DNA from: Nereocystis luetkeana
Lineage: Eukaryota > Sar > Phaeophyceae > Laminariales > Laminariaceae
Direction: 5' to 3'
Assembly: GCA_031213475.1 (NCBI GenBank)
Contig: JARUPZ010000019.1
Location: 7,490,870 to 7,554,869 of the forward strand
DNA length: 64,000 nt
Made by a program: the position numbers and the translations under genes. The notes under the pieces were generated by a model. The model saw only the letters and a list, made by a program, of their open reading frames with translations. It made no database searches and had not been told where the DNA came from. Shown one piece after another: positions 1 through 50,864 of this stretch (the first letter of the stretch is position 1; every line of letters begins with the position of its first letter).

Positions 1-2754
1 CTCTTTATCATTCCCCTGTCCGTCGGCGTGCCCGACCCGTGCCTTCCCCCTCTTCTTTTTCTTCTTCTCCTGCTTTTGTTCGAGTTGCACCAAGCTGTCT
101 GTGATGGCTTTATCAGCAGCGAAACGTTTCTCCGCCACACGCAGCACCGCTGTAAAAAACATGTTGAACAACAATGGCGCGAGCACACACCCTTGCCGTA
201 GGCCCTGGTTCACGTCGAACATATATGAGCACTCGCCGTCATCCAGCCGCACGCATGCTCGCATGCCGTCGTGGAATTGGCGGATAACGGTGAGCATTCT
301 AGGTGGCACCCCACAGCGAGCCAAGACAGCCCACAGGAGGGTTCGGTCGACGGAGTCATAGGCTTTGGTGAGGTCGACAAAGCACATGAACAGCGGAGTG
401 TCCTTCTTCCTTGCCAATTCCTGCAAGCGTCGCACCACGAACATCATGTCGACCGTCGATCGTTCGGGCCTAAAGCCACACTGCTCCTCTGGCAGGATGC
501 CTTCCCGTTCGCAATAGTCGCTGAGTCGGCGCGCGATGACTTTGAGGAGTACTTGGCCGGCATGCGCGACAAGGGAAATGCCACGATAGTTACCACACTC
601 CGTCCTGTCTCTCTTCTTGTGCAGCACCTTAATCGTTGCATCCTTCCATTGCTGCGGCACGACCCCTCCCTTCCACACAGCGACGATAATCTCGTAAAAG
701 CTTCCCAAGGTGTCCGAGTCTCCCTCGTCGGCCAGGACCTTCAGAAGTTCAGCTGGGAGACCATCAGGCCCAACCGCCTTGCGGTTCGCCATCGCCCTGA
801 TCGCGTCTTCCACCTCGTATCTAGACGGGACGTCGTCCAGCGGACTGCACGAAGGCCAAACCTTGAGCTCATCGACGATAGTCGGGTCGAGGGTCGATGA
901 CTTGGTGTTTAGCAGCTTATGGAACCACCTTACCCATCGTTCCCGGATGAGGCCTATGTCTCGTAGTAATCTACCTTCCTCGTCCCTGATGTACTGCGAA
1001 TGGAAAGTCCTCTTTCCTTCCACATTCACCCCCTTAAGGTGATTGTAGAACCCAAACTGATCGCCTTCTTGGATACGCCTTTCGAGTTGACGGACGTATT
1101 CCTCGAAGAACTTCTGCATTCCGTCCGTCCTCGCATGTTTGAGCTGTTTAGTGGCAATCTTCCCAGCTTTTCGCAGATTTTTGTCTTCAGGGTTAGCACG
1201 TAGTTGCGTCCTCGCATTTTCCTTCTCCTGCCATCGTGAGTGCACCTCTGCTTTTACCTCTTCGGGCGTACACCAGCCCAGCGGCCCTTGTTTTCGACTG
1301 GTATGAGGTGCTAGTTTAGCAGCAGTCGACAGCACGATCTCCACTAGAACAGTTGCCTTATCATCGACACTCCCAATTGTACCAGGCGGTGGGGGGGTAA
1401 GTTTCGTTATTTCCCTATTGAGGTCCGCTCGGAGACCGGGGTCTGCCATCAACCGTTGTAAATCAATAGCTCGTTTTCCGCTGCCTGCTTTTACCCTCCG
1501 ATTCGGCGTGAACCGACCCAAGAGGCGAATATTGCAGACCACGAGGTTGTGGTCAGATTCATGCCGATCCTCTTGGGGTTTCCGTAATGTCATGTTGCGG
1601 ACCAGGCGTCGATCAACTTGCCGAGTAAGGATGTAGTCTAGCCTACACTGACCCTTCCCGGAGTTTGGAGATTGGAAAGTGTACGACACTCCGCGAGTAG
1701 GTGTGGCAAAGAACGTGTTGAGGAGCGCAAGCCTGTTGTCATCTGCGAGGAGGAGTAGTCGCTCTCCGTTGTTGTTCAATCCATCGCGCCCGTATTTACC
1801 CATCACCTTACTGCCGGCACATCCGCTCTCTCGCTTGCCGGTGCGAGCATTTGCATCCAAGGGCACAAGTAGGTGATCCCCACTTGGAACCCCCGAGACG
1901 ACTTTGTTCAGTTCGTTCCAGAAGTGGTCTTTCTCGCGAACGGGTGCATCCAGTATCGGCGCATAGCCGACAACAAAAGAAACAGCATTTGATTTGCCCT
2001 CAAGTTGAATGCGAACTTTCATCAGTCTGGCACTAACGCACTCCACCTCGAGACCATCCTTGCCCACACCTGCCACAATAGACTCCCTGACAGCTAGTCC
2101 TACACCATGGGTGCCCTTCCTCTCGTATTTGCTGCCGTCTGCTCCAGAGCAAAAAATCGTGTATCCAGCTGCTGTGAACGTGCTATGCCCGTCTCGCCTA
2201 GTCTCTTGGAGACCTACGACATCGCATCCTAGTTCCTGGCATACCTTCATGATGACCTCGCTGTGGCCGATGCCATTTTTGCCGTTGAAGGCGAGTGTGC
2301 GAACATTGAACGTACCCACGACGAGTTCCCCAGCTCTGTACCTAGCCCTAGCATCTGAGCGTAACCTTCGAGCTTCTCTGCGACCTTTCCGACCTTGCCT
2401 CCTCTTCTTCCGTGCTGCGTGTTTTTTCTCCTCTACCCTCCGCTTTTCCCAGGCGGTGGGTTTCTTCCGTTCCGTGTTTTTTCGCCCGGCCCGGTTCGTG
2501 CCGAGGTTCCGACGTGCTGGGGGCAGCAATCCCAACGCGCCTCGACGCCCATCATCTCCTAGATGACGTCGAATGGGGTGCTTACTCACGTGGATCCTAG
2601 CCTCTCTTCTCCGTTCGCTACGAGTTCCACGCCTTCCGCGACGGTGATACGACACGGCTACCGCAGGCCATACTGCCGCGTGGAAAAATCCGCGAGGAAA
2701 CTTTCCGCCATATCGCTGGCCATCACCGCCGGCTTGACCATGCTCGAACGCTAG
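1..2754 (-). CDS. LINE ORF2: APE-type endonuclease plus reverse transcriptase, open at the left edge
   Basis: One minus-strand frame stays open from a stop at 2757-2755 to the window edge (918 codons). By this family's known function the product nicks target DNA and primes reverse transcription there. A basic leader rich in Arg and Lys runs to about 2330. The endonuclease follows with GTFNVRTL, QETRR, GYAPI, LDANARTG and SDHNLVV, the N/E/Y/D-N/SDH series of APE-like LINE nucleases (about 2330-1500). A linker about 500 nt long leads to reverse transcriptase motifs FVDLTKAYDSVDR (near 350-390) and QGLRQGCVLAPLLFN (near 180). A lysine-rich stretch lies just before the edge, and the YxDD motif must lie outside the window. 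I found no in-frame ATG before 2250, so the true start is upstream, non-ATG or lost. The frame looks intact and the copy may be young. Confidence 0.9.
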
Positions 2755-10657: not shown

Positions 10658-12978
10658 TGTTATGATACTGCTTTGTATGAGGTTGAAAGCCCGGTAAATA
10701 CCTAGGTTCAGGCACTGGGAACGTATTTGTTAATATCACGGATAGGGGGACACTTCGTATCCCAGGACAGGTCTGCTTATTAAGTCGGTACTCGTTGGTA
10801 CTCACGTTGTTGTTCGCTGTTGTTGTTCGCTCAGAGATAGAAGAATAGTTTTATTCCTTTCGTGCACGACGGAGACTGAGACCACGCTCGTGTCTCTCTG
10901 GAAATCCCTGGTTTCCCACCTAAGATACGCCTTCCAAGTACTACAAATACGATCCCAGTGCCAGAACCCAGGTAATTACCGGGCTTTCAATCTCATACAA
11001 AGGAGTATCATGACACTAGCCCACTCTGATTAGCTGTATATTATGCAGAATTATGTGGAATTCATGGAAACCCCGATTCCACAAACTAGAACATGAATCG
11101 ACGATGCGGCTCCTCAAAACCCACTCCCACACCTCTGAACGGCAAGGCAACGAAGCCGGCCAAGTACGTAAAAAAGAATGAAAGGAAGACGTAGCCTAAA
11201 GGGGCAGGAAGAAAATCGTCAACGAAAAATTATTGCCATGTCACCCGCGACGGGGGGGGGGGCGACGAAGATGCAGGGAAAAGTGAAAAGTGAACATATA
11301 AAAAACGAGAAGAAAACATAACACGGAAGATGTCAAGAAGCATACAGAAAACACAGCCTATAACTCGGGAAACGTGTCCTGTGCCACAAATGAGTGGCCC
11401 GATTACCCAGACCAGCCCCGACACTGAGCGGGGGGGGTAGGCAGGACAGAACACGCGAAAACCATCCCCAACCAAGCCCAAGAAAAAAACAAAAAAACAA
11501 ACAAACAAATAATCGAGGAACACACCTGCCGGAAAAATCCCGACCCGAAAACTCGGAAAACGTCAAAAAGTTGAAAAAACACCCCCCAGAGTCCAGGAAA
11601 ACGTCGAGAAAAAAATATCGAGAACTGCGAAAGTCAGCTATCCACGGCGGCGCCTCGAGATTCGTCTATGTTGAGCTGGACCCCCCGTGCAAATGCGCTA
11701 GCCGAGTGAATTTACAGACACCAAGAGCCTCGTAAAGCTCTCGTCGAAGTCGTGTAGCGCGCCGGAGAAAGAGGAAGCTTGATCGGTCCCGGATCGTCCA
11801 AAAACCGAACCAAACATACTCCATCCGTGGGCGTAGTCGCGCTGATTTTCCCGAGCCACCACAGACCGTCGTCACCCTTGTACAAAAAATGGGCCCCGTT
11901 GGGAAGCACGGTGTTGCAGTATCGGCGGAGCCAGTCGGCGTGCGAGACGCAGCCATAGCCGGGTGCCAGAAACCGCTCGCCGTTACTCCGGGAGAGCTCC
12001 CGTTGTGCCGCGCCGATTCTCATTCGGCGGTACAGGTGGTTGGTTTGGCGGTGCTGGTTCGGGGTTCCGGCCCAGCAGCGCAATATTGCGTCGCGAGAAA
12101 GCTGAAGGTCCATTTCCCGTTCCCAGGATGGACGGGATAGCCCTGTCCAGCGCGTCTCGCACATCACTGCTATGACGCCACCTTGACCTCGAACCGATTG
12201 GTGTCCGGTAATCTTCTCCACTTCGAGTCGGTGAAGAGGTGTCGAGACGTCGTCCTGGGTGACGTGTTACAGAGGAGATTTCTTGGAGAAGTTGTTGAGA
12301 ACGTACTGCGTCAACCCCACTGGCAAATACGTCGGCATGTCGCCACGGTCGTGGGGGTTGGCACAGGGCTTGCATCGTTGAACTGAAACGCGCCGATGAG
12401 CATCCGCGCTGGGCATATCGGAAAGAAGATCCACATACAGGAGCTTTGCCCCAAGAGGAGATCCGTCCGGGGTGTCAGCTGAGGAGCAGGGGCCAACTGC
12501 GACGTATTATGTCTTGCCGATGACGCCACTTGTTAAGATCACGGATAGCGGGACACTTCGTATCCCTGGACAGGTCTGCTTAATAAGTGGGTACTCGTTG
12601 GTACTCACGTTGCCGTTCGCTTAGAGATAGAAGAGTAGCTTTGTTCCTTTCGTGCACAACGGAGACTGAGACCACGCTCGTGTCTCTCTGGAAAACCCCT
12701 GGTTTTCCACCTAAGATACGCCTTCCAAGTTGGTAATTTGCCGGGCTTTCAATCTCATACAAAGCAGTATCATAACATATTTGTAGTACTTGGAAGGTGG
12801 AAAACCCGGGGTTTTCAAGAGACTCACGAGCTTGGTCTCAGTTCCCACGTGCACGAAAGGAATAAAGCTGATCTTCTTCTATCTCTAAGCAAACAACACA
12901 CGTGAGTACCAACGAGTGCCGACTTAATAGGCAGGCTTCTCCAGGGATGCAACGTGTCCCACCTGCTTGATCCTAACA
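10658..12978 (+). mobile_element. Solo LTR of TRIM-like family L1, split by a second L1 element
   Basis: Fossil LTR. The first 70 bp (10658-10727, TGTTATGATACTG start) and the rest (12778-12978, ending CTAACA) together form one plus-sense LTR of about 270 bp. It is interrupted by an antisense element of the same family at 10728-12777. A TATT duplication (10724-10727 and 12778-12781) brackets the insertion. The host LTR was therefore present before the insertion. Confidence 0.85.
10728..12777 (-). mobile_element. LTR retroelement of family L1 (LARD/TRIM-like), antisense, fossil
   Basis: Fossil LTR element. LTRs lie at 10728-11015 and 12531-12777, with a 1.5-kb interior. In the element's own sense (minus) the primer-binding site next to the LTR at 12531 reads TGGCGTCATCGGCA, which suits a tRNA-Ser primer. 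The purine-rich stretch near 11016-11030 is the counterpart before the other LTR. The only sizeable sense frame (11712-12221) contains LWWLGKISATT and VRFLDDPGPIKLPLSPARY. This resembles a small barrel/chromo-like segment, but that is a weak inference. No complete gag-pol is present, so the element is broken or non-autonomous. The two LTRs differ clearly in length, so it is older than the TRIM at 16 kb. Confidence 0.8.
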
Positions 12979-16063: not shown

Positions 16064-17700
16064 TGTTATGATACTGCTTTGTATGAGGTTGAAAGCCCGG
16101 TAATTACCTGGGTTCTGGCACTGGGAACGTATTTGTAGTGCTTGGAAGGCGTATCTTAGGTGGAAAACCAGGGGTTTTCCAGAGAGGCACGAGCGTGGTC
16201 CCAGTCTCCGTCGTGCACGAAAGGAATAAAGTGGCTCTTCTATCTCTAAGCGAACATCAACGTGAGTACCAACGAGTGCCGGCTTAATAGGCAGACCTGT
16301 CCAGGGATACAAAGTGTCCCGCACTCCGTGATCTTAACAAGTGGCGTCTTCGGCTTAGGACTTTTTGCCTTTTTGCCGGTACAAGTTTTTTCCACTCTGT
16401 TTTTGCTTTTGTTTTAGCTTCTTTTTTTTTTTGAGTCAATTTGCTCCACTGCACGATGGAGACTCACGAGGAGGGAGGGTCTGCTTCCCCTCGTGGTGGA
16501 CGAGACACTGAGGCCCAGACCCGCCCAGTGCCCCACCGCCCAAGGCTCGTCGATGGAGATCGAGCGCCTTGTACAACAGACCACCAAGCGGAACGTGTGT
16601 CTCGACAGGAGCCCAGTGATGACGACGTGGATCGCGCGCCTTGTACAACTCGCCCGTCCGAAGACCCAGGGCTGGGGCCCCTTGGCGAATCTCGAGCAGC
16701 TTCCGGCAGACGGACCTCGTTCAAGACCTTTTCCGAGCCTTCTCGCTCGCCGGGACGAGCTCTGCCGTCCAAGCCACCTGGCTCCGCTGAGAGCGTTGAG
16801 CCAGCTTCTTCCGCTCTGGGCCGGAGAGCGTCGGACCCTTCGGAGCGCGTGGCGCGCATAACCAGCCAGGCCTTGGGTTTTGCAGTTTTGACTCCCCACT
16901 CGTGCCATCTGCCGTCCAAGCCGTCCAAGCCACCTGGCTCCGCTGAGGGCGTGGAGCCAGCTGCTTCTGCTCTGGGCCGGAGAGCGTCGGACAAACCTGG
17001 ACGTAGCGTTTTTCACGCGAGCCAACTGCGCTCTTCGCCATCGGATCTACCTGCTCCTGGGCCAGATGAGAGAGTGATTGCGACTGTTTTTCCGCCTCGC
17101 ACGATTCCACTGCTGCCCGACCTCGCTCGTACGCGTAGGATAGCCGCGAGCGATGCTGCCTCTCGTGATTTTTTTCCCGCAACGCGAGCACACGACGCGA
17201 TTTTTCCGTGCGCGCACCACACGATGACACACTGGACTTCAGTATTGAGGCTACGCTTCCTTTCATTCTTTTTTACGTACTTTGCCGGCTTCGTTGCCTT
17301 GTCGTTCAGAGGTGTGGGAGTGGGTTTTGAGGAGCCGCATCTTCGACTCATGTTCTAGTTGTGGAATCGGGGTTTCCAAGAATTTCCCATAATTCTGCAT
17401 ATACGGCTCATCAGAGTGGGCTAGTGTTATGATACTGCTTTGTATGAGGTTGAAAGCCCGGTAATTACCTGGGTTCTGGCACTGGGAACGCATTTGTAGT
17501 ACTTGGAAGGCGTATCTTAGGTGGAAAACCAGGGGGTTTCCAGAGAGGCACGAGCGTGGTCCCAGTCTCCGTCGTGCACGAAAGGAATAAAGTGGCTCTT
17601 CTATCTCTAAGTGAACATCAACGTGAGTACCAACGAGTGCCGGCTTAATAGGCAGACCTGTCCAGGGATACGAAGTGTCCCGCTCTCCGTGATCTTAACA
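16064..17700 (+). mobile_element. TRIM (terminal-repeat retrotransposon in miniature), family L1, structurally whole
   Basis: Two 276-bp LTRs (16064-16339 and 17425-17700) start TGTTATGATAC and end ATCTTAACA. They differ at only about seven sites by eye, so the insertion is fairly recent. A 4-bp CTTA target duplication flanks it (16060-16063, 17701-17704). The primer-binding site (16342 on) reads TGGCGTCTTCGGC and suits tRNA-Ser; a purine-rich GAGTGGGCTAG precedes the right LTR. The 1085-bp interior carries one 305-codon sense frame (16441-17358) with no gag, protease, RT or integrase motif. It contains an internal repeat (PPGSAE.VEPA.SALGRRASD twice). By definition TRIMs rely on enzymes from elsewhere. 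Confidence 0.9.
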
Positions 17701-47847: not shown

Positions 47848-47857
47848 ATTATCGGAG

Positions 47858-48210
47858 TGTCATGATACTGCTTTGTATGAGGTTGAAAGCCCGGTAATTA
47901 CCTGGGTTCTGGCGCTGGGATCGTATTTGTAGTACTTGGAAGGCGTATCTTAGGTGGAAAACCAGGGTTTTTCCAGAGAGGCACGAGCGTGGTCTCAGTC
48001 TCCGTCATGCACGAAAGGAATACAGTGGCTCTTCTATCTCTAAGCGAACATCAACGTGAGTACAAACGAGTGCCGGCTAAATAGGCAGACCTGTCCAGGG
48101 ATACAAAGTGTCCCGCTCTCCGTGGTCTTAACAAGTGGCGTCGACGGCAGACCTGCGCGTGAAATCACAATGGGTTTCCAATCCATTTCCTTAACCACTC
48201 GGGCACGACG
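47858..48210 (+). mobile_element. L1 solo LTR joined to a complementary copy of its tRNA-Ser(GGA) primer
   Basis: Fossil. 47858-48133 is a 276-bp L1 LTR (TGTCATGATACTG to GTCTTAACA). After AG, the sequence 48136-48210 is not element interior: read on minus it is a tRNA-Ser. It has TCGTCGTG, a D-arm CCCGAGTGGTTAAGG, an anticodon arm ATGGATTGGAAACCCAT (anticodon GGA), a variable arm TGATTTCACG and then a short T-arm GCAGG/CTGCC lacking its loop. The acceptor strand follows, ending in CCA next to the LTR. Eukaryotic tRNA genes do not encode CCA. The unit interrupts an M1 MITE, with GGAG at left and CGAG/GAG at right. Confidence 0.85.
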
Positions 48211-48290
48211 AGAGCTTTTCCCCCATATTCTCGACATTTTTTTCGCGCAATTTTTCAATCTTCCATATTTCCCTGATATTTTTTTCTAAG

Positions 48291-50073
48291 ACCTATGCCA
48301 ATGGAAACGCGAAGTTCGAAAGTTTTTTTCTAATATATCGCTTTCAAAAAACAGCCGAAAAAATTCTCGTACCGCCGCTGTGGGAAAAAAAGAGAAAAAA
48401 GTTTGATTTTTTCTCTTTTTTCCCCCAACGGCTGCAGGCGGCGCAATTTGTGTTTTTCTGGTTTCAAATTGTCAACACGGTGATCGAAACCAGCTCGTGC
48501 GACGATCGACGCTCGATCTCGACATAGACTCAGCCCACGGCCAACCCGCTCGGTATCTGGCAAGGCCAGCGAATATAGATGACGGCCTCGAAGATATCAG
48601 GTGGATCCATGGTCTAGGGCGCGAGAGCTGGCCAGCGGCGTCCTACGGTATCCTCCCAAACCTGAAAAAAAGGTCTATTTTTTGCCATTCGAGACGGGTG
48701 GAGAAGTTTAGTCTTCTGTTTTGTGCAAACCAGCGGCCAAATGTTTTTTTGTCATACGCCTGGTCAGGTCCCGCCACATGACACTGGCCATGGTGTGAAG
48801 ACGGTGACCATAGGGTGGGTCGGAGCCCCTAACGAGCGCACTCCGTTCAGAATTCATGACGCAATCGTTGGTTTTGTTGATCGATGTCTGTCGAGGACTC
48901 GGAATCTCGCCGCTTCGAACCAAAGGTCGGCCTGAGTTTTTCTCAAGCCGATGTTGGCCCACAACATCGGCCCCAGATTGCTTTTTTCGGGCTTTTCCTG
49001 GCAGGTCTCCTATGCCAATGGAAACGCGAAGTTCAAAAGTATTTTTTCAAATATATCGCTTTAAAAAAACAGCCGAATTTTTTCTCGTACCGCCGCTGTG
49101 GGAAAAAAAGGGAAAAAAGTTTGATTTTTTCTTTTTTTTTCCCCAACGGCTGCCGGCGGCGCAATTTGTGTTTTTCTGGTCGCAAATTGTCAACACGGTG
49201 ATCGAAACCAGCTCGTGCGACGATCGACGCTCGATCTCGACATAGAGACTCAGCCCACGGCCAACCCACTCGGTATCTGGCAAGCCCAACGAGTATATAG
49301 ATGACGGCCTCGAAGATATCAGGGAGATCCATGGTCTAGGGGGCGAGAGCTTGCCGGCGGCGTCGTACGGTATCCTCCCAAACCTGAAAAAAAGTCTATT
49401 TTTTGCCATTCGAGACGGATGGAGAAGTTTAGTCTTCTGTTTTGTGCAAACTAGCGGCCAAATGTGTTTTTATCACACGCCTGGTCAGCTCCCGCCACAT
49501 GACACCGGCCATGGTGTGAAGACGATGACCCTAGGGTGGGTCGGAGCCCCTAACGAGCGCACTCCGTTCAGAATTCGTGACGCAATCGTTGGTTTTGTTG
49601 ATCGATGTCTGTCGAGGACTCGGAATCTCGCCGCTTCGAACCAAAGATCGGCCTGAGTTTTTCTCAAGTCGATGTTGGCCCAACATCGGCCCCAGATTTG
49701 CTTTTTTCGGGCTTTTCCAAAAGTTAGGAACTTTTTTTTTTTTTTAGGTGGCCCACATAGGAAGCGTGTTCTGATTTTTTTTGGCGGGTATCTTTGAAAT
49801 TCAAACTTTTTATTGCAACTTCGCTGTACCATTGGCATAGGTCTTCGGAACTTTTTTTTTTTTTAGGTGGCCCATAGGAAGCGTGTTCTGAAAATTTTTG
49901 GCGGGTATCTTTGAAATTCAAAGTTTTTATTGCAACTTCGCTGTACCATTGGCGTAGGTCGGAACTTTTTTTTTTTTTTACGTGGCCCATAGGAAGCGTG
50001 TTCCGATTTTTTTGGCGGGTACCTTTGAAATTCAAAGTTTTTTTTGAAACTTCGCTGTCCCATTGGCATAGGT
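48291..50073. mobile_element. 1.78-kb foldback element with internal 717-bp duplication
   Basis: Ends are inverted: ACCTATGCCAATGG(A/G)(A/C).CGCGAAGTT-like at both. Inside, 48292-49008 and 49009-49725 are a direct duplication of about 717 bp (for example CGGCGGCGCAATTTGTG-type, ACACGGTGATCGAAACCAGC, GAAGTTTAGTCTTCTGTTTT). Then come three units of about 115 bp (from 49729, 49848 and 49963) built on TAGGTGGCCCATAGGAAGCG and TTGCAACTTCGCTGTACCAT. No transposase was found; the target duplication is unclear. Confidence 0.75.
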
Positions 50074-50461: not shown

Positions 50462-50520
50462 CATACAGACTCGATCGTAATATAGACAACATGACGTATA
50501 CGAGTACATCCATGTAAGCC

Positions 50521-50864
50521 GGTCGCCCCGGTGGTTCAAGTGGTTAACCTCGAATTCTACTTGTTTGAGTCCTGGGTTCGAGCCCCAGGAGGGTCGGACT
50601 TTGACTTTATTTGCAAAAATAAAAAAAGGGATTCAATTGTTGAGAGCGCCTTGCAGCGTGGGTAGGCACAATTCGATGCGAGTCGACGAGGGAAGAAAAG
50701 GCTGAAATCTTCTCGCGATAAAAATGAAGGCACGTACCGTAGCGGGAAGGGGGAAGAAGAGCCTGCTACGTGTCCCCGGATCTAAGTTACGAGTCGGAAG
50801 GAGAGAGAGAAGAAGATGTGCGAAGATAATGAATGGGATGAGAAAAAAAAAAAAAAAAAAAAAA
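50521..50864 (+). mobile_element. tRNA-headed SINE related to S1, with poly(A) tail
   Basis: Head: CCCCGGTGGTTCAAGTGG (A-box-like) and CCTGGGTTCGAGCCCCAGG (B-box-like with a good T-stem). The body carries AAGGCACGTACCG and ends in a 22-base A-run. The acceptor stem does not pair, so it is a SINE head and not a tRNA gene. Confidence 0.75.

Follow-up and report, generated by a model that had tools for sequence, protein, structure and literature searches.

How does an LTR come to be joined, in the middle of a MITE, to the complement of a nearly whole tRNA? This question is raised by positions 47858-48211 of the window, the 64,000-nucleotide stretch of Nereocystis luetkeana DNA that we analyzed. 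Plus-strand strong-stop synthesis normally halts before m1A58 of the primer tRNA, and it passes position 58 with methyltransferase-mutant cells (PMC13191261). We conclude with high confidence that the unit in the window is over-extended plus-strand strong-stop DNA of a tRNA-Ser-primed LTR element. That element was probably of the Ty3/gypsy type.

The unit begins at U3 with TG, contains the whole LTR and the spacer, and continues into the complement of CCA (47858-48138). Its LTR (47858-48133, plus strand; 276 bp, U3-R-U5) has TG...CA ends (TGTCATG...TTAACA); compared with the pair of LTRs that bound the intact element at 16064-17700, it shows 95.7% and 94.9% identity. The tRNA part fits the primer of the primer-binding site (PBS) and reaches nucleotide 4 or beyond in alignment with host genes (L085-L093 and L095). 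Relative to host tRNA-Ser(AGA) genes, the copy is changed at nucleotides 25 (G>A), 26 (G>A), 34 (A>G), and 68 (A>T), and nucleotides 55-61 are absent. Because the LTR carries only 6 private substitutions in 276 columns, decay alone is insufficient to explain these differences. LTR identity and host-gene alignment together confirm the preliminary description of an LTR followed, inside a MITE, by a near-whole tRNA-Ser complement with CCA. That description had the copy extending to about nucleotide 2, which holds as far as nucleotide 4; nucleotides 3 and 2 are common to the tRNA and the target. The window copy consists of LTR and tRNA alone, a form that it may share with others, as several right ends among its relatives are unread.

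Table 1. Coordinates of features in the window, and structure of the tRNA-bearing relatives for which both ends are in hand.
Feature	Position	Strand	Remarks
Left part of interrupted MITE terminal repeat, TTATCGGAG	47849-47857	+	Last 3 bases GAG are the left duplication copy
2-nt spacer AG, LTR to PBS	48134-48135	+	Same as in canonical elements
Reverse-transcribed primer tRNA-Ser	48136-48211	- (tRNA sense)	Aligned to host genes L086-L091
tRNA copy: CCA; G73; acceptor 3' strand	48138-48136; 48139; 48146-48140	-	Host-gene alignment
T-loop skip junction	48150-48151	-	Nucleotides 55-61 (including A58) absent
tRNA copy: nucleotide 34	48179	-	G (gene A)
tRNA copy: nucleotide 26; nucleotide 25	48187; 48188	-	A (gene G); A (gene G)
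tRNA copy: nucleotide 4	48209	-	48210-48211 either tRNA nucleotides 3-2 or target
Right duplication copy GAG	48210-48212	+	Microhomology GA with tRNA 5' end
Right part of interrupted MITE	48213-48283	+	
Canonical element	16064-17700	+	LTRs 16064-16339 and 17425-17700; CTTA/CTTA duplication
Second relative	10728-12777	-	PBS TGGCGTCATCGGC 12528-12516; AATA/AATA duplication; nested in older LTR
L074: LTR-tRNA (to about nucleotide 20)-interior-LTR			TTGA on both sides
L065: LTR-whole tRNA-interior-LTR			CACG
L064: LTR-tRNA (to 27)-end of LTR			CGTT
L072: LTR-tRNA (to 27)-end of LTR			TCCC

The identity of the window copy as tRNA-Ser comes from alignment with host genes, not from tRNA models. When the minus strand of 48139-48212 was compared with the Rfam tRNA model, as had been proposed, the match ran end to end and reached 16.7 bits (E = 0.22 in a 96-base search), under the gathering score of 29. 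Wider scans with the same model gave no match to the tRNA copy, ARAGORN called no tRNA there, and the strand folded no better than shuffled sequences (z = +1.9). Such a poor fold and score are expected of a tRNA without its T-loop.

The interrupted MITE can be recognized on both sides of the unit. Six further MITE ends in the window have its terminal repeat, TTATCGGAGAGC, none with more than one mismatch, and the insertion site reads TTATCGGAG, unit, GAGAGC. To the right, 48210-48283 is 89% identical to 35284-35211 and 48212-48289 is 85% identical to 15217-15140, both on the opposite strand. A near-tandem repeat of about 720 bp, with 94-96% likeness, adjoins the MITE at 48324-49682. The target duplication, previously put at about 4 bp, is 3 bp (GAG), or 4 bp if one mismatch is accepted (GGAG/CGAG); it is not decisive, because its GA fits the tRNA as well.

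If every element of the family carried this tRNA sequence as ordinary interior, the unit would need no special explanation. The two other elements in the window argue against this. Each has an LTR, the dinucleotide AG, and a PBS that matches 12 of 13 bases of the AGA-type primer (TGGCGTC, one mismatch, TCGGC), followed by a different interior. In the element at 16064-17700 the PBS, TGGCGTCTTCGGC, occupies 16342-16354, with no tRNA sequence past it. In the element at 10728-12777, the interior at 11943-11934 (GCACGCCGAC, minus strand) fits the copy of the tRNA 5' end (GCACGTCGAC) at 9 of 10 places. The tRNA copy is therefore not the normal interior of every copy. Other features of these elements deserve mention. 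At 10658-12978, the second relative sits in an older LTR of the same family whose flanks are ACAA/ACGA, and most of the interior of the small element at 16064-17700 is filled by an open frame of 307 codons (16435-17358) with no Pfam match. On the minus strand of window positions 1-2754, a long open frame with Exo_endo_phos endonuclease and RVT_1 domains belongs to a LINE-like element.

To identify the host genes, we searched the genome with a pattern for the tRNA 3' end without the following C. There were 12 loci and none with the reversed control; once fetched, they comprised six intact tRNA-Ser(AGA) genes, four intact tRNA-Ser(CGA) genes, and two decayed loci. All 10 intact primer-type genes have G26 and A58. 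A second pattern, covering the anticodon and D arms with at most two mismatches, returned 45 loci, which is a lower bound, and again none with the reversed control. These divided into 12 gene-like loci with G26 (7 AGA, 4 CGA, and 1 TGA) and 33 copies. The seventh AGA locus is known from the pattern listing, its sequence not having been fetched, and the TGA locus (L124) has a different body. Among the 12 gene-like loci listed, none has anticodon GGA, and none has A26 or G34. A decayed tRNA-Ser pseudogene (L094, C25:9471517-9471635) has no CCA, yet it carries A26 and GGA, as if it came from mature tRNA. Outside the host genome, a contig filed under a Maritimibacter bin (L031 and L032, NZVC01000054.1) carries 69 tightly packed tRNA genes, serine AGA, GCT, and CGA among them, and is likely a misbinned eukaryote. 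Further candidate modification marks at positions 10, 32, and 39 and in the variable loop had been seen against a reference tRNA-Ser(AGA) from the probably misbinned contig; they were rejected when host genes proved to have the same bases as the copies.

The window unit is one of many. Using it as a query against the 465-Mb host genome, we found that 20 of the 42 matches listed, window included, reach query position 326 or beyond and so enter the tRNA; the search began from 2,743 first-look candidates, its counts are lower bounds, and the query is biased toward tRNA-bearing copies. Of these 20, the 19 other than the window copy include 9 that are exactly 360 bases long versus 353 for the window copy, a difference that reflects the presence of the T-loop. 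All 19 were fetched and aligned in detail with the window copy, with break points set by eye. Fourteen of the 33 pattern-listed copies, including the window's, belong to this first set, and the other 19 were fetched later. The total is thus at least 38 loci (20 with the window plus 19 more, counting L061 and L062 once), four of them with 4-bp duplications. One candidate for a second LTR-tRNA fusion, L040, was rejected, as it ends in another repeat. A random sample of 27 genome stretches (270 kb) was of no help in finding tRNA genes or further copies. In 3 of these 27 stretches (L055, L053, and L057; 97, 89, and 92% alike) there is a dispersed tRNA-like repeat (GGTGGTTCAAGTGGTTAACC...GGTTCGAGCCCCAGG), also present at window positions 50518-50620, which is possibly a tRNA-derived SINE. 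Four tRNA pattern scans of viral contigs gave no match, and 30 viral-contig matches to TTAACAAGTGGCGTC were discarded as short chance matches.

The copies lie behind more than one kind of LTR. A recognized LTR end adjoins 29 of the 33 pattern-listed copies, two have a weakly recognized end, and two have none (L113 and L114), so the division into genes and copies does not depend on position 26 alone. The 19 further copies include six with the LTR family of the window (plus one weakly), five with a second LTR-like end, four with a third (plus one weakly), and the two without a recognized end. The second and third ends are presumed LTRs, defined by CA, a 2-nt spacer, and a copy of the tRNA 3' end, with no two-LTR element seen and with reference tails drawn from the copies themselves. 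A tree was built from 28 LTRs, and 3 of its 25 inner branches are starred. It places the canonical element at 16064-17700 among the read-through copies; the element at 10728-12777, L042, and L057 fall outside that group, and both isoacceptors occur in both main subgroups. Not all copies are independent, since L061 and L062 share flanks and several copies share one interior junction. For this reason, and because break points were set by eye, a Fisher test on the 20-copy alignment overstates significance.

The copies differ from the genes at particular positions. At position 26, the 33 copies read A in 32 cases, T in one, and G in none, and their anticodons are GGA (16), CGA (15), and TGA (2), never AGA; the two TGA copies may be CGA copies with a CpG change. 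The 20 aligned copies give the same picture. Position 26 is changed in all 17 that read it, eight have G at position 34, 11 have C, one has T, and none has A, and position 58 is altered or absent in 8 of 20 (T in 7 and deleted in the window copy), with L073, ambiguous near a T-loop gap, counted as unchanged. Across all remaining positions, 35 of 1,460 cells differ (2.4%). In L064 and L072 the tRNA copy breaks off at nucleotide 27, one base short of G26 (by eye). Of the 19 further copies, 16 can be read at position 58, and 7 of these are altered there (4 T, 2 G, and 1 C), with L119 set by eye. An apparent tie between A58>T and the CGA isoacceptor in the first 20 copies was dropped, because L111, L112, L116, and L117 read GGA.

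What would produce such changes? Reverse transcriptases leave mutation signatures at m2,2G26, I34, and m1A58 in tRNA-seq work (PMC4697793 and PMC9943672), and PMC5372738 describes human, yeasts, and fly as having serine AGA genes, converted to inosine, without any GGA gene. The pattern at 26, 34, and 58 in the copies seems to be the one predicted for mature tRNA-Ser, with I34 read as G, dimethyl-G26 misread, and m1A58 sometimes misread or skipped. G26 and A34 are missing from 33 of 33 copies and G26 is present in 12 of 12 gene-like loci, a sequence pattern that agrees with mature modified tRNA as the template and from which the modifications themselves may be read. The initial assignment to tRNA-Ser(GGA) must accordingly be given up: none of the gene-like loci listed is GGA, the gene has the anticodon AGA, and GGA in the copies is consistent with a reading of inosine as G. 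The D arm and anticodon arm do match the host gene, as the initial reading demanded, except at 25, 26, and 34, and the changes at 26 and 34 are those that mature-tRNA chemistry would predict.

The skipping of the T-loop with position 58, as first described, is real in the window copy, but this 7-nt skip is private to it; most others have the T-loop, with A58 kept or substituted, some are 1 or 2 nt short, and most of the T arm is gone from L114 and L121. Against the explanation stands that A58 is unchanged in 21 of 36 readable copies. So does the behavior of nucleotides 5 and 68, by which the AGA genes can be told from the CGA genes: many copies are mosaic at these two places. The window copy combines T5 of the AGA type with T68 of the CGA type; the AGA-type T5 is found in 3 of 5 readable GGA copies, and the CGA-type A5 in 6 of 9 copies with C or T at 34. 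These mosaics are not explained by a single template unless repair derived from the PBS is added.

We next consider what lies beyond the tRNA. Both ends are in hand for four relatives (L064, L065, L072, and L074), and each has a perfect 4-bp duplication. The same length is found in the two canonical elements and in the older nested LTR (ACAA/ACGA); it characterizes the LTR family and is not specific to Ty3/gypsy. The 3 bp at the window unit fall short of this length, a point against the strong-stop account. Given these LTR-type ends and 4-bp duplications, read-through DNA can finish an aberrant transfer and integrate. In at least 10 other copies the tRNA gives way to element sequence, which may be interior, a 3' LTR end, or a pol-like frame. 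L065 and L071 share the place at which they pass into the interior, and there GCACGCCGAC resembles the tRNA 5'-end copy GCACGTCGAC at 9 of 10 bases; L116 goes back into the LTR end. L066 runs from LTR and tRNA into RT/RNase H (Pfam RT_RNaseH, 1.8e-26 on the adjoining stretch, L080), L069 runs into a frame ending YLDDV (by eye), L060 and L073 enter a frame with a DTGS motif, which we take to be that of a protease, and L067 enters an opposite-strand frame that is integrase-like by eye. These pol-like joins suggest gypsy-type partners. However, the L066 join does not prove the Ty3/gypsy identity of the LTR family, since it is a template switch and the pol frame could be that of another element. 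L068, L070, L075, L077, and L078 enter sequence without assignment. A search of 0.8-1.8 kb downstream found no second LTR in 11 copies (L060, L062, L066-L070, L073, L075, L077, and L078), so completion of the transfer is demonstrated for few.

Two further types of junction were seen. L108 and L118 are palindromes of LTR, tRNA, and the inverted end of their own LTR that turn at the tRNA acceptor stem (by eye), which suggests fold-back priming by the run-off plus strand. In L112 (by score) and L068 (by eye), what comes after the tRNA copy is an inverted end from a different LTR-like family, which suggests that two molecules were joined.

The following steps can be fitted onto what was observed of the anatomy, the host genes and their signature positions in the copies, the several LTR ends, and the junctions and duplications. 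Minus-strand synthesis would begin on mature tRNA-Ser(IGA). Plus-strand synthesis through U3-R-U5 would then copy the still-attached primer to the tRNA 5' end, inserting C opposite inosine 34 and misreading dimethyl-G26, and in the window copy it would jump over the T-loop at m1A58. Other copies would undergo an ectopic second strand transfer into element sequence, and two would turn back on themselves at the acceptor stem. Within the window, what entered the MITE would be the LTR-tRNA DNA itself. The enzyme was presumably the reverse transcriptase of the element, and the order given for these steps is likewise a reconstruction. The insertion of a read-through strong-stop product, already proposed for this locus, is supported.

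How the window copy reached its present form is less certain than what it is. The simplest account is direct strong-stop insertion, in which this copy never had a second LTR, and we consider that account reasonably probable. Its main rival is later loss of the right part: the copy would once have been LTR-tRNA-interior-LTR, like the relatives (at least 10) that run on into element sequence, until a deletion took everything right of the tRNA. We judge this unlikely, because the tRNA end meets the MITE at just the point where the left flank breaks off, with a repeat of 3 bp, so that the deletion must have ended precisely at the target site, and because LTR-LTR recombination would remove the tRNA, not keep it. 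Solo-LTR recombination was rejected as the origin of the unit on the same ground. It is far less probable that the tRNA part came from a genomic tRNA gene or pseudogene joined at the TGGCGTC that it shares with the PBS. CCA was earlier held to rule out a gene source; this argument is weaker than claimed, since TGG is already in the element's PBS and TGGCGTC is in canonical PBSs, and a decayed A26/GGA pseudogene without CCA does exist (L094). However, A26 or G34 is found in 0 of 12 gene-like loci, all 33 copies lack G26 and A34, and three different LTR-like ends show the same in-register join through a 2-nt spacer to CCA.

The unit might instead be a tRNA-derived SINE on the minus strand, with a tRNA head and an antisense-LTR body, propagated by a LINE. 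The minus strand does read tRNA-Ser, CCA, and LTR complement, copies are many, and the window contains a LINE-like EN-RT frame. We nevertheless regard a SINE as highly improbable, since the sequence past the tRNA 5' end, which would be its 5' side, varies between copies; four copies have LTR-type ends and 4-bp duplications; a canonical LTR element lies among the copies in the LTR tree; and the window copy, without its T-loop, has no B box, although many others keep theirs. The combination of a common 5' end, A and B boxes, a LINE-type tail, and long variable duplications does not describe this set. In the strong-stop model of how tRNA-derived SINEs arose, the DNA involved is minus-strand strong-stop DNA. 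The unit resembles what that model proposes, in that primer tRNA is joined to LTR-derived cDNA and integrated, but U3 is present here, which places the molecule after the first strand transfer. With the B box lost and no sign of LINE propagation or SINE-type amplification, the proposal that the unit is an intermediate in the birth of a SINE is not supported. A tRNA could also have primed itself, been reverse transcribed alone, and then been inserted next to an LTR. Such a mechanism has been put forward for tRNA-Gly in a cell line infected with HIV (PMC12220202), and L094, L113, and L114 are tRNA copies without a recognized LTR end. This, too, has very little probability in our view: LTR end, short spacer, and tRNA 3' end are in register in the 20 aligned copies and in at least 15 of the other 19, which is what elongation from the PBS would produce, and the copied tRNA matches the PBS.

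Products of this kind are known from retroviruses. HIV-1 product P1 is a read-through to the 5' end of tRNA-Lys3, made on unmodified tRNA, and PMC13191261 lists it as not an active template. Like the unit, P1 is a copy of the whole primer formed when position 58 does not block (PMC13191261). The copies described here differ in that they resemble products made on modified tRNA and have become fixed in a genome, and in that some of them finished the transfer, at ectopic positions. A whole reverse-transcribed tRNA at an LTR end is likewise known from MoMLV, in a circular DNA where tRNA-Gly sequence lies between two LTRs (Colicelli and Goff 1986, via PMC12220202). That was a single cloned episomal molecule with a spurious primer, whereas here the primer matches the PBS, dozens of copies are integrated, several LTR ends are involved, and there is a modification signature. 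An HIV-1 provirus flanked by a tRNA-Gly copy shares the joining of a CCA-bearing tRNA copy to an integrated LTR (PMC12220202), but it came from one cell clone, the tRNA was non-cognate, and its authors read the copy as self-primed and separately inserted. Our literature search, which left most subscription papers outside its reach, found no description of a genomic set of read-through copies or of modification marks in them.

Taken as a whole, the genome may be an archive in which several LTR families have left traces of reading through their primer tRNA. Single insertions would then document how mature tRNA-Ser was modified, and some lineages would now use a full-length tRNA complement as PBS, rewritten from different isoacceptors. 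We hold this reading tentatively, giving it somewhat less than even weight. In L061/L062, L063, L076, L119, and, partially, L114, an interior that starts like GAACAGCCGC follows directly after the tRNA. Nucleotide 34 reads C, T, G, C, and G in these loci, and because it varies among them the PBS seems to have been rewritten from different tRNA-Ser isoacceptors. Alternatively, one interior site may have been reached several times by independent jumps, as in L065 and L071. If a full-length tRNA-complement PBS is indeed in use, read-through would no longer be a dead end. Described as unable to continue reverse transcription, read-through has left at least 38 loci behind three LTR or presumed LTR families, and a few of its copies are complete integrated elements with deleted interiors. 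Furthermore, DNA copies that seem to keep misreadings at 34, 26, and 58 would make the modification of a primer tRNA readable without RNA. Which barrier, 58 or 26, ends plus-strand strong-stop synthesis thereby becomes testable in a lineage far from the laboratory retroviruses.
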